Assembly (NCBI GenBank): GCA_900317055.1
Contig: ONFF01000025.1
Coordinates: 1 to 64,000 of the forward strand
Length of the DNA stretch: 64,000 bases
DNA from: an uncultured Bacteroidales bacterium
Lineage (GTDB): Bacteria; Bacteroidota; Bacteroidia; Bacteroidales; F082
Direction of reading: 5' to 3'
Shown: one piece after another, positions 8,261-11,437 of the stretch
Position numbering within the stretch: the first letter of the stretch is position 1
Layout: each line of letters starts with the position of its first letter
Notes under the pieces: model-generated
The model's input: the letters and a program-made list of their open reading frames with translations, nothing else
The model's database searches: none
What the model was told of the DNA's origin: nothing
Program-made: the position numbers and the translations under genes

Positions 8261-8377
8261 TTTTCGAATATTTAAGGTTAAGAATAGACGGCAAAGATAG
8301 CATTTTTATTGTTGCCGCAACCCTCTCGTTACAACGTTTTCGCAAAACCCCTATCTTTGCACCAAGATTCTATTCCT

Positions 8378-11300
8378 ATGAAAAGCGAGAATAGAGAACG
8401 GGATATTTATAAAACCACCCTTGTTGGCGGAGCCGTGAATGTGATCCTACTGCTGTTCAAGTTCATCGCAGGCATATTAGGGCACAGCTCCGCCATGATT
8501 GCCGACGCTATCCACTCGCTTTCCGATTTCGTGACAGACATCATCGTGCTGGTCTTTGTCAAGATCAGTAACAAGCCGCAAGACAAGTCGCACGACTATG
8601 GGCACGGCAAATACGAAACTCTGGCGCTCACCATCATCGGCATTGCCTTGATGGCAGTCGCCATCAGCATCATTGTGAAAGGTGCCATTAAGATTGCCGC
8701 CTGGGCCAACGGCGAGGTGCTCGAAGCACCTGGAATGCTGGCTTTCTGGGCTGCCATTGTGTCAATTGTTCTGAAAGAGGCCGTTTACCGCTATTCCATC
8801 GTCAAAGCGAAAAAGCTGAACTCAAAGGCTTTGGAGGCGAATGCGTGGCATCATCGCAGCGACGCGCTGTCGTCAATAGGTACAGCCGTGGGCATCGGCG
8901 GTGCCATCTTCCTTGGTGAGCGATGGACCATCCTCGACCCCGTTGCTTCGGTGGCGGTGGGTGCTTTCATCGTCAAGGTTGCCTTCGACCTGCTCAAGAA
9001 CGGCATCGGTGACCTGATGGAGCAGTCATTACCTGATGAAGTGGAAAATGAAATCCTAAAATTGGTCGCTGAAATGCCCGGTGTCGACGAACCTCACGAC
9101 CTACGCACCCGACGCATCGGCAACCACTATGCCATCGAATTACACATCCTGATGGACGGCGACATCAGCCTCAAGGAAGCCCACGACAAAGCCTCAGAAG
9201 TGGAAGACCTGCTCCGTCAACATTACGGAGAAGAAACGCATGTGGCGGTCCATGTGGAGCCAAAAGAGAAGCCTTCAAATAAGACCACATTGAAAAGCAT
9301 TTTAGTTCTGCTTTTCCTTGCCCTTTCCTTTGGCGCACAAGCCCAAACGGTTGACAGCCTTTCACTTGGCCCTATCTTTGTCAACGAAGGCGAGACCACC
9401 ATCTACCACATCAGCCGCGACCCGAAGGCAAGACAAGGCACCATCTCAGATGCCCTGCAAAATGTTCCAGGCGTTAAAGTCGACACCGAAGGCAACATCA
9501 CCTTGCGTGGAGTGGACAATGTAGAGCTATTCATCAACGGGCGGCCTTCTCATTTCGATGAAGAAAGCCAGAAAAACTACCTTCAACAGGTGAAGGCCAT
9601 CTCCATCGAACGCATCGAAGTGATGACCAATCCCTCGGCACAATACACTTCAGCCTCTGACACAGGCGTCATCAACATCATTACGGATACTGGAGACAGT
9701 TCTGAACAGCATCTCAGCATCGGCCTGCAATCCAACACCCGCCCCAATGTTTCGCCTTGGCTGTCCTACATCTGGAGCAACAAAAAATGGTCGTTCAACG
9801 CCAATCTGAAAGGCGGCTATTCAGGTGTCAAAGAGCATTCTCATGGCTACAGTTACTCCTTTGTGGACCATTTAGAGAGCGGCTTGCCTGGCGGACTCGA
9901 CACGACCAGCATCACGCGCTATTCCAGAAACGACACCTCTTTTAATTATGAGGTCGAAGCCTTCCTCAAAGCCGAATACCGCCCCAATCGACAAAACGAT
10001 TTCACAGTCTACTTCGGCATCAGCCCAAGCATGAGCCATGCTTCTTCATTCTCCAACACCTATCGGAAGGAGTACATCAACGACATTGGAGAATACGACT
10101 ATGCCATCCACAACGAAAACCGCCAAAACTACTCCGTTGGTGCCATAGGTATCGGCTGGCAGCATCGTTTCGACCAACCTGGACAATCCTTAGGCGTCTT
10201 CCTGAATTCCGAATACGATTTCGGCAATGGCATCGCAAAAGAACAGCGTACCTTTAAGAACCAGCCCCACCTCAACCGCGATATCATCAGCACCAACGAC
10301 TTCACAGACATAGGCTACGATGCCAAAGTGGAATACACCCACCCCTATCGTTTTCCAATAACTGAAGGAAAGGCCCCGCATTTCGGAGAAATCTACCTGA
10401 GCCTCACTGACTACATGAAGCCTGACAACAACATCGGCATATACGACACCTTAGGAGCAGATGGCTACGTCACCGACTGGAACCGCTCCGAAAACCGCCG
10501 TTTCAGCACCAACAAAGCGGCTGCCACTTTAATGGTATTGCATCATATCGGGAACTCCATCACCATTAAGCCTGGCATCAGTTGGGAAAACGCTTGGATC
10601 AAATCACACTACCTTGACACCCCTGCATATGATACCCTTTTGCGGCATGCCTATTGGAGACCTTCATTGCACATCAGCTACCGAACACCGTCAATGCACA
10701 ACTTCAGTTTCAGCTATACCCGCAAGACTTATTATCCATGGGTACGCTATTTCACCAGAAAAAAAATGTATGACGAAGAATCGTTCTCGGTTGGCAATCC
10801 CACACTGAAGCCCACACTGATAGATGTTTTCGAACTGTCATGGGCCAAATACGCCGACCAACTAGGTTCGATAAGTGTGAAAGGCTATTTCAACAACTCC
10901 ATCAACGCCATTAACATGGTGAGCGATGTGGCATACGACTCTCTATGGAATCGTGTGGTACCTTTCAGCATACCCGTCAACCTTAACAAATACTATGAAA
11001 CAGGTGGAGAATTCAATGTCACCTACCGGCCAAACGCCACCTTCAACATCAGATTAGAAGCCAACATCTATGATTCTCACATTGAGACCTACTACAACAA
11101 AACCTTAGACAGTCTGATTCTCAGTAATATGTGGGCCTACAACTTGCGTCTCAGCACATGGGTCAAACTATGGGACAAACTCGAACTGCACGCCACCGCC
11201 TATTACAATTCACCCACGCAAACGCTCTTCGCCACCAAACAAACCGCCTACGGCATCGACTTTGGCCTTCGCGCCGACTTCTTCGGAAATCGGCTCTCCT

Positions 11301-11437
11301 TCCTCCTTAACGCTTTCGACATCTTCAACTGGAACAAAGAAGACAACTATACCTACAATCCCTATTACATTTCCTACAAATCAAACAAGGCCAACAGCCG
11401 TTATGTCAGCGTTGAGTTGATCTATAAAATTTGGTGA
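8378..11437 (+). CDS. Cation diffusion facilitator fused in frame to an outer-membrane TonB-receptor-like protein
   Basis: One open frame of 1019 residues from the ATG at 8378. Residues about 1-304 are a cation diffusion facilitator: ADAIHSLSDF and HHRSDA metal-site motifs in two helices, YGHGKYE loop, and a cytoplasmic domain ending HVAVHVEPKEK. A signal-peptide-like stretch follows (KSILVLLFLALSFGAQAQ) with a signal peptidase I-like AQA site. The rest is a plug domain (SDALQNVPGVKV, LRGVDNVELFINGR, IERIEVMTNPSAQY, GVINIIT) and a large beta-barrel. An in-frame TTG at 9290 would start the second protein as MKSILVLLFL and give 715 residues. Likely metal export or uptake; whether it is one chain, two overlapping genes or a lost stop is unresolved. 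Confidence 0.8.
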   Translation: MKSENRERDIYKTTLVGGAVNVILLLFKFIAGILGHSSAMIADAIHSLSDFVTDIIVLVFVKISNKPQDKSHDYGHGKYETLALTIIGIALMAVAISIIVKGAIKIAAWANGEVLEAPGMLAFWAAIVSIVLKEAVYRYSIVKAKKLNSKALEANAWHHRSDALSSIGTAVGIGGAIFLGERWTILDPVASVAVGAFIVKVAFDLLKNGIGDLMEQSLPDEVENEILKLVAEMPGVDEPHDLRTRRIGNHYAIELHILMDGDISLKEAHDKASEVEDLLRQHYGEETHVAVHVEPKEKPSNKTTLKSILVLLFLALSFGAQAQTVDSLSLGPIFVNEGETTIYHISRDPKARQGTISDALQNVPGVKVDTEGNITLRGVDNVELFINGRPSHFDEESQKNYLQQVKAISIERIEVMTNPSAQYTSASDTGVINIITDTGDSSEQHLSIGLQSNTRPNVSPWLSYIWSNKKWSFNANLKGGYSGVKEHSHGYSYSFVDHLESGLPGGLDTTSITRYSRNDTSFNYEVEAFLKAEYRPNRQNDFTVYFGISPSMSHASSFSNTYRKEYINDIGEYDYAIHNENRQNYSVGAIGIGWQHRFDQPGQSLGVFLNSEYDFGNGIAKEQRTFKNQPHLNRDIISTNDFTDIGYDAKVEYTHPYRFPITEGKAPHFGEIYLSLTDYMKPDNNIGIYDTLGADGYVTDWNRSENRRFSTNKAAATLMVLHHIGNSITIKPGISWENAWIKSHYLDTPAYDTLLRHAYWRPSLHISYRTPSMHNFSFSYTRKTYYPWVRYFTRKKMYDEESFSVGNPTLKPTLIDVFELSWAKYADQLGSISVKGYFNNSINAINMVSDVAYDSLWNRVVPFSIPVNLNKYYETGGEFNVTYRPNATFNIRLEANIYDSHIETYYNKTLDSLILSNMWAYNLRLSTWVKLWDKLELHATAYYNSPTQTLFATKQTAYGIDFGLRADFFGNRLSFLLNAFDIFNWNKEDNYTYNPYYISYKSNKANSRYVSVELIYKIW
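9290..11437 (+). CDS. Alternative start: outer-membrane receptor-like protein from internal TTG
   Basis: If translation restarts at the TTG at 9290, the product is 715 residues with a textbook signal peptide (MKSILVLLFLALSFGAQA then QT). A plug-like domain and a barrel of the Bacteroidetes outer-membrane family follow, without an N-terminal carboxypeptidase-like domain. No Shine-Dalgarno is visible. This entry is the second half of the joined frame, listed separately because its separate synthesis would resolve the topology problem of an inner- and outer-membrane protein in one chain. Confidence 0.45.
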   Translation: MKSILVLLFLALSFGAQAQTVDSLSLGPIFVNEGETTIYHISRDPKARQGTISDALQNVPGVKVDTEGNITLRGVDNVELFINGRPSHFDEESQKNYLQQVKAISIERIEVMTNPSAQYTSASDTGVINIITDTGDSSEQHLSIGLQSNTRPNVSPWLSYIWSNKKWSFNANLKGGYSGVKEHSHGYSYSFVDHLESGLPGGLDTTSITRYSRNDTSFNYEVEAFLKAEYRPNRQNDFTVYFGISPSMSHASSFSNTYRKEYINDIGEYDYAIHNENRQNYSVGAIGIGWQHRFDQPGQSLGVFLNSEYDFGNGIAKEQRTFKNQPHLNRDIISTNDFTDIGYDAKVEYTHPYRFPITEGKAPHFGEIYLSLTDYMKPDNNIGIYDTLGADGYVTDWNRSENRRFSTNKAAATLMVLHHIGNSITIKPGISWENAWIKSHYLDTPAYDTLLRHAYWRPSLHISYRTPSMHNFSFSYTRKTYYPWVRYFTRKKMYDEESFSVGNPTLKPTLIDVFELSWAKYADQLGSISVKGYFNNSINAINMVSDVAYDSLWNRVVPFSIPVNLNKYYETGGEFNVTYRPNATFNIRLEANIYDSHIETYYNKTLDSLILSNMWAYNLRLSTWVKLWDKLELHATAYYNSPTQTLFATKQTAYGIDFGLRADFFGNRLSFLLNAFDIFNWNKEDNYTYNPYYISYKSNKANSRYVSVELIYKIW

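Follow-up and report, generated by a model that had tools for sequence, protein, structure and literature searches.

How does one uninterrupted reading frame come to encode both a metal exporter of the inner membrane and a receptor of the outer membrane, and how would two such proteins be obtained from it? We asked this of a locus in a stretch of 64,000 nucleotides from an uncultured Bacteroidales bacterium (contig ONFF01000025.1 of assembly GCA_900317055.1), called here the window. On its forward strand, positions 8378-11437 hold a single open frame of 1019 codons, from ATG 8378 to TGA 11435-11437 without any internal stop, in which a FieF/YiiP-type cation diffusion facilitator (CDF) exporter, a linker of seven residues, a signal peptide and a TonB-dependent receptor follow one another. 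Pfam places Cation_efflux at residues 16-214 of the 1019-residue product, ZT_dimer at 218-295, Plug at 352-427 and OMP_b-brl_3 at 596-1016, all four scoring above their curated cut-offs. An earlier note on this DNA had proposed just such a frame, unbroken from CDF to receptor, with the CDF ending in HVEPKEK and followed by PSNKTTLKSILVLLFLALSFGAQAQ, a signal peptide, a plug and a barrel; the sequence and the Pfam matches bear it out.

The fusion itself is real, and it is conserved among a number of related gut bacteria. A search of 100 related genomes, the window's own included, gave two further genomes with the same open frame, and a junction query over 99 genomes of the genus found the open fusion in six, again counting the window's own (G000, G132, G016, G129, G027 and G135), in frames of 1036-1049 residues. 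The five other loci lie on separately deposited contigs of metagenome-assembled genomes (MAGs; CAMHJX010000023.1, CACXXW010000107.1, CADCJI010000040.1, CAMYXV010000138.1 and CAMJRR010000012.1), and the identity of the whole-frame protein to the window copy is 98.6% in G132, 96.9% in G016, 97.3% in G129, 79.3% in G027 and 83.6% in G135. We consider it likely that the frame is a true bacterial polyprotein, that is, one chain which signal peptidase I would cut in two, the exporter for the inner membrane and the receptor for the outer.

This recurrence bears directly on the suggestion, also made in the earlier note, that a missing or extra base had erased a normal stop. An out-of-frame TAA does precede the joint, at 9280-9282 rather than at 9279-9281 as first given, and it is what a sequencing or assembly error that removed the stop or shifted the frame would have in its favor. 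However, the same open joint is shared by six genomes, five of them separate MAG records, at up to 21% protein divergence, and the linker's sole indel spans one full codon, so that an error is ruled out for the receptor fusion and retains a negligible probability.

Both halves are maintained under purifying selection in the pairs computed, with ratios of nonsynonymous to synonymous substitution rates (dN/dS) of 0.025-0.058 for the CDF half (four pairs) and 0.07-0.12 for the receptor half (five pairs). In pairs that involve G027 or G135, dS is 0.87-1.88, and dN/dS lies at 0.029-0.058 (CDF) and 0.089-0.12 (receptor). One could also suppose that the read-through is decaying or without function and that the CDF alone matters, and point to the related CDF of G030, which is unfused, ends at a normal stop and has no close receptor; the constraint on the receptor, together with the absence of stops and frameshifts from the fused frames of all six genomes, makes this account very improbable.

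The two halves of the frame

The CDF exporter half comprises residues 1-297 (8378-9268, forward strand). It matches Cation_efflux and ZT_dimer with E values of 2.5e-47 and 6.9e-26, and TIGR01297 with 226.1 bits (cut-off 82.35), while under the equivalog models, that of FieF included, it scores below each model's own cut-off. A Foldseek search with the fold gave 8f6h (E 3.3e-14). Two pairs of putative metal ligands, H46-x3-D50 in transmembrane helix (TM) 2 (8513-8527) and H158-x3-D162 in TM5 (8849-8863), align with the site of FieF and are invariant in the six fused proteins; we take the matching residues, in FieF numbering, to be D45/D49 and H153/D157. This alignment supports the proposal of a zinc-type CDF, the metal being presumably zinc by the HxxxD rule. 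Because no other PF01545 protein was found in the window's genome (98.7% complete), of which the fused CDF is the sole match to that family, the exporter probably has to work despite the fusion. Like the FieF/YiiP-type exporters, which have six helices and a C-terminal domain in the cytoplasm, it combines their fold with a ZT_dimer domain, HxxxD metal pairs and a length of about 300 residues; unlike them, it has no stop after HVEPK and continues through the signal peptide.

The open reading frame (ORF) tool opens the frame upstream, at TTG 8309. Since a promoter-like box, TATCTTTG (8352-8359, forward strand), lies after that codon, ATG 8378 is the likelier start. The box fits the pattern TAnnTTTG, which we take to be the consensus of the Bacteroidetes -7 promoter element.

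The receptor half would mature from Q323 (9344-11434, forward strand), with the Plug match at 9431-9658 and the barrel match at 10163-11425. In the AlphaFold model described below, 10-residue blocks between residues 581 and 900 have predicted local distance difference test (pLDDT) values of 77-97, save one block of 56, and the best Foldseek matches in the PDB are TonB-dependent transporters (PhuR, Cir, ZnuD and OprC; 8the, E 5.8e-18). The receptor sequence matched no PDB chain up to E 0.1, and its neighbors differ among the relatives, and for these reasons we claim no substrate for it. It shares signal peptide, plug and barrel with TonB-dependent receptors of the Plug and OMP_b-brl_3 type, but differs from them in having neither a conserved start codon nor a promoter box of its own; it is also short, and a Pfam scan up to E 0.001 found no N-terminal domain of the CarboxypepD_reg type.

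The joint, the predicted cut and the start of the receptor

Between ZT_dimer and Plug the frame holds only a short linker and a putative signal peptide, KTTLKSILVLLFLALSFGAQA, followed by Q. The linker KPSNKTT (residues 298-304; 9269-9289) occupies the place of the stop codon of a free CDF and varies among the fused species, the only indel being the one whole codon that is absent in G135. Codon 305 (9290-9292) lies near the site where the old ATG of the receptor would be expected, and is TTG in the window. The h- and c-regions of the internal signal peptide follow (residues 306-322; 9293-9343, forward strand) and end in AQA (320-322), with Q323 next; Q321, A322 and Q323 are invariant in all six fused proteins. 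As reported by Bochtler et al. (PMC5837995), cleavage by the signal peptidase I of Bacteroidetes exposes a Gln in most substrates, which is cyclised to pyroglutamate, and the Gln directly after the predicted cleavage point that this Q rule describes is present in the six proteins. The window's genome has a signal peptidase S26 gene. The need for a cut at AQA, if one chain is to serve two membranes, had been pointed out in the earlier note, and AQA is indeed the most likely site.

In the polyprotein model, the six helices of the CDF half would insert into the inner membrane, its C-terminal ZT_dimer domain staying in the cytoplasm. As the C-terminus of the CDF would then be cytoplasmic, the internal signal peptide could enter Sec in the usual N-in orientation and the receptor would be carried to the periplasm. 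Signal peptidase I would cut between A322 and Q323, leaving the receptor with an N-terminal Gln that would probably be cyclised to pyroglutamate. The receptor could then move to the outer membrane and act as a TonB-dependent transporter, and the exporter would stay behind in the inner membrane, where the spent signal peptide, unless trimmed, would form its seventh helix. The two products would be made 1:1 from one promoter.

Might the chain instead remain whole, with exporter and receptor functioning as a single envelope-spanning protein? The frame is uninterrupted, as such a protein would need, and its cleavage is a prediction. Nevertheless, from the signal peptide to the Plug match there are only about 30 residues, which even stretched would cover at most about 11 nm, and usual periplasm widths exceed that distance. 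The signal peptidase site is moreover invariant and of the Bacteroidetes type (PMC5837995), and we regard an uncut chain as highly unlikely.

AlphaFold was used across the junction. The model obtained with 66 rows (mean pLDDT 65.8) shows six long helices and an alpha/beta domain, followed by disorder across the joint (294-339) and then by a plug and a mostly confident barrel. A first model from six sequences, which was very poor (pLDDT 31.2), had a helix at 302-322.

We then asked whether the receptor could be translated separately from an internal start, either TTG 9290, as had been proposed, or the GTG at V293, the open joint being an incidental overlap. Most lone receptors of the receptor tree set have an ATG just before the signal peptide, a position matched to codon 305 by eye. 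In the six fused loci this codon is TTG in three, the window included, GTG in G016, CTG in G027 and CAA in G135. A start at TTG 9290 is possible in the window's genome and in two others, with GTG in a fourth; as a general answer a conserved TTG start was rejected, in view of the CTG and CAA of the remaining two, where the receptor is similarly constrained. In G135, past V293, no ATG, GTG or TTG occurs before the signal peptide ends, and its receptor has a dN/dS of 0.089 against the window copy and 0.109 against G027, similar to the others. The GTG at V293, in the tail of the CDF, is present in all eight fused rows (counting L112 and L134, two other fusions described below), but it is also the commonest codon at this place in the unfused CDFs (40 of 69); the rows are related, so the count is weak and does not convincingly indicate selection for a GTG start. 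Further in favor of an internal start, a lone receptor in G033 overlaps the preceding gene by ATGA, so that coupled translation may occur in the receptor family; against it, the L134 and L112 joints likewise lack ATG, GTG and TTG.

The promoter pattern points the same way. A TAnnTTTG box stands 26 or 38 nt before the ATG of the CDF in each of the six fused loci, and none of the six has one within the 400 nt upstream of the junction; the background in the window is 0.175 boxes per 400 nt and strand. As a control, 10 of the 14 lone receptors checked, out of 20, have such a box at most 350 nt upstream of their NEG codon. A second promoter inside the CDF was accordingly rejected as a candidate. 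Because the start codon is not conserved and the box is absent at the joint, the receptor seems to have lost its own start and its own promoter and to depend now on the CDF gene, and we judge separate translation from an internal start unlikely, though of more weight than the other alternatives considered here.

Several points weigh against the polyprotein model and temper it. Cleavage, location and stoichiometry of the products are predictions from sequence. Residues 299-325, the linker end and the signal peptide, evolve fast (dN/dS 0.30-0.45), which is usual for such segments, and the openness of the frame across so short and variable a joint is weak evidence when taken alone. The 66-row AlphaFold model forms no helix at the signal peptide, and its CDF part is of middling confidence. 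The V293 GTG of every fused row could in principle serve as an internal start, as could the TTG or GTG at codon 305 where these occur. At least one lineage, that of G030, lacks or has dropped the fusion.

The closest precedent for the polyprotein model is FbcH of Bradyrhizobium, a polyprotein of cytochromes b and c1 that signal peptidase I cuts, for which our literature search, covering titles and abstract openings, gave no describing paper. Both cases join, in a single gene, a polytopic inner-membrane protein whose C-terminus is cytoplasmic to an exported second protein by way of an internal signal peptide; but FbcH yields two subunits of one inner-membrane complex, whereas the products of the CDF-receptor frame would sit in different membranes, and no joint function is known for them. 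To our knowledge very few bacterial polyproteins cut by a signal peptidase have been recognised, FbcH being the case in point, and the same search of titles and abstract openings found no account of a CDF-receptor fusion. The kind is thus known, and the combination of proteins and its recurrence are new to us. Against the usual view that one start gives one protein stands a fusion that joins proteins of two membranes, has been retained by six species and is paralleled by fusions to other cargo. It makes two matters testable: whether an outer-membrane protein can be brought to Sec by a polytopic membrane protein that precedes it, and how fusions of genes for different compartments survive, namely through a signal peptide placed internally behind a C-terminus in the cytoplasm. 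Annotation may call such genes errors or assign them false starts.

Unfused relatives and the history of the fusion

The 69 unfused CDF rows that match the motif end 1 to 12 residues past HVEP, about where the linker begins in the fusion. Among the loci examined, none has a CDF and a receptor of the kinds joined in the fusion side by side on the same strand with a stop between them; stop-bearing CDFs and lone receptors occupy other gene arrangements. G043 (L069) retains the order aldo/keto reductase, CDF, small barrel protein and dipeptidyl peptidase IV; the place of the DUF218 gene is taken by two small lipoprotein-like genes, and no receptor lies between the CDF and the barrel protein. In G033 (L070), where the receptor has the ATGA overlap, the CDF is about 3.7 kb off on the opposite strand. 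The small lipoprotein-like gene (MKKVLPLLLLAFVMCQCNF...) is found in tandem in the interval between reductase and CDF, with four copies in L164 (8778-11393), three in L071 (5828-7755) and two in L069 (6225-7507).

In a tree of 26 receptor rows the fused receptors form one clade, with a support of 95 in the Shimodaira-Hasegawa-like approximate likelihood ratio test (SH-aLRT). The tree of 77 CDF rows needs two changes for the fused rows, as the unfused CDF of G030 (L072, 8252-9148), which ends at a normal stop, is nested among the fused CDFs and groups with those of G027 and G135. G030 has no close receptor among the matches listed, the best being at 39%, and L072 appears to have lost it. Since the receptors form one clade while G030 nests within the fused CDFs, the history is most simply one gain and one later loss. 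The origin in the genus would thus most likely be single: a receptor gene may have come directly behind the CDF, after which the stop of the CDF and the start of the receptor would have been lost.

Beyond the genus, 88 of 173 genomes of the family have the CDF at E 1e-60, and frames of more than 443 residues occur only at the six fused loci and in G127. The 691-residue frame of G127 was rejected as a further fusion, its extension running upstream, and so was the 660-residue frame of G333, in which the CDF ends at a normal stop. At the level of the order, the junction profile was met in 41 of 393 genomes; of the frames inspected, which exclude those of G787 (505), G937 (423) and G1022 (400), the window's is the sole plain fusion.

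Further fusions involving this CDF

In Prevotella-type genomes the same CDF is fused to other proteins. At L134 (G213; CAJOFA010000002.1, 5248-8508) it is followed by KTRHHKRSLLSVLLLTVALTGFAQ and an exported GH95 hydrolase, and past the GTG of HVEP no ATG, GTG or TTG occurs before the hydrophobic core. At L112 (G214; JAFPZD010000076.1, 1214-3148) a repeat-rich linker leads to a lipoprotein signal, LLAVTGC, and an S11 peptidase; the codon at its likely former start is CTG, and the joint has no ATG, GTG or TTG. The third fusion, L171 (G296, 386-1978), joins the CDF to the tRNA methyltransferase TrmO, a cytoplasmic protein, without a signal peptide and with an internal ATG retained; it respects the cytoplasmic C-terminus of the CDF. 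The junction profile matched 125 of 398 and 26 of 399 genomes, and fused frames were found only in G213, G214 and G296 (G215 at 409 and shorter, and G1368 at 385, were left out). The scan covered 78 CDF places, of which nine are fused, namely the six receptor fusions, L112, L134 and L171; in the other 69, a gene starts on the same strand within 150 nt in 38, none does in 30, and one place was too short. A crude signal-peptide rule was positive in 10 of these 38 following genes and missed clear cases such as L187.

We entertain, as a proposal just short of evenly balanced, that this CDF is a recurrent head of polyproteins, having captured an exported neighbor at least three times (the receptor, the GH95 hydrolase and the lipoprotein S11 peptidase), each cargo arising solely as an extension of the exporter's C-terminus, from which signal peptidase I or II would release it. 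If so, a polytopic membrane protein whose tail lies in the cytoplasm could be a ready-made co-translational carrier for export. The L134 and L112 fusions each occur in one genome, a point that counts against the polyprotein model, and are unconfirmed by relatives: the L134 joint is whole only in G213 among the matches listed (199 genomes), and that of L112 is found only in G214 (119 genomes). The fused CDF is the only PF01545 protein of G213, and G214 has two. The promoter test says little at L134, with no box before the CDF and a box in only two of five lone GH95 loci, and dN/dS of its hydrolase against five lone homologues is uninformative, four comparisons being saturated and the fifth having a dS of 3.99.

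Likely precursors of the L134 fusion are seen at L107, L129, L142 and L187, where a gene whose start resembles that of the L134 hydrolase has its own ATG 11-29 nt past the CDF stop and its own signal peptide, in L187 in the same frame as the CDF. At L185, an exported peptidase-like gene begins 12 nt behind the CDF stop, in frame.

Two minor observations concern the loci used for comparison. The CDF of L124 (CADCBK010000031.1), a contig titled Spirochaetaceae, groups with the Prevotella row L123 (SH-aLRT 89), and the contig is probably misbinned. Beside the lone receptor of L073 (G120:C43), positions 9613-11177 hold an array resembling clustered regularly interspaced short palindromic repeats (CRISPR), with 24 repeat copies (38 nt as reported) and a period of mostly 66 nt.

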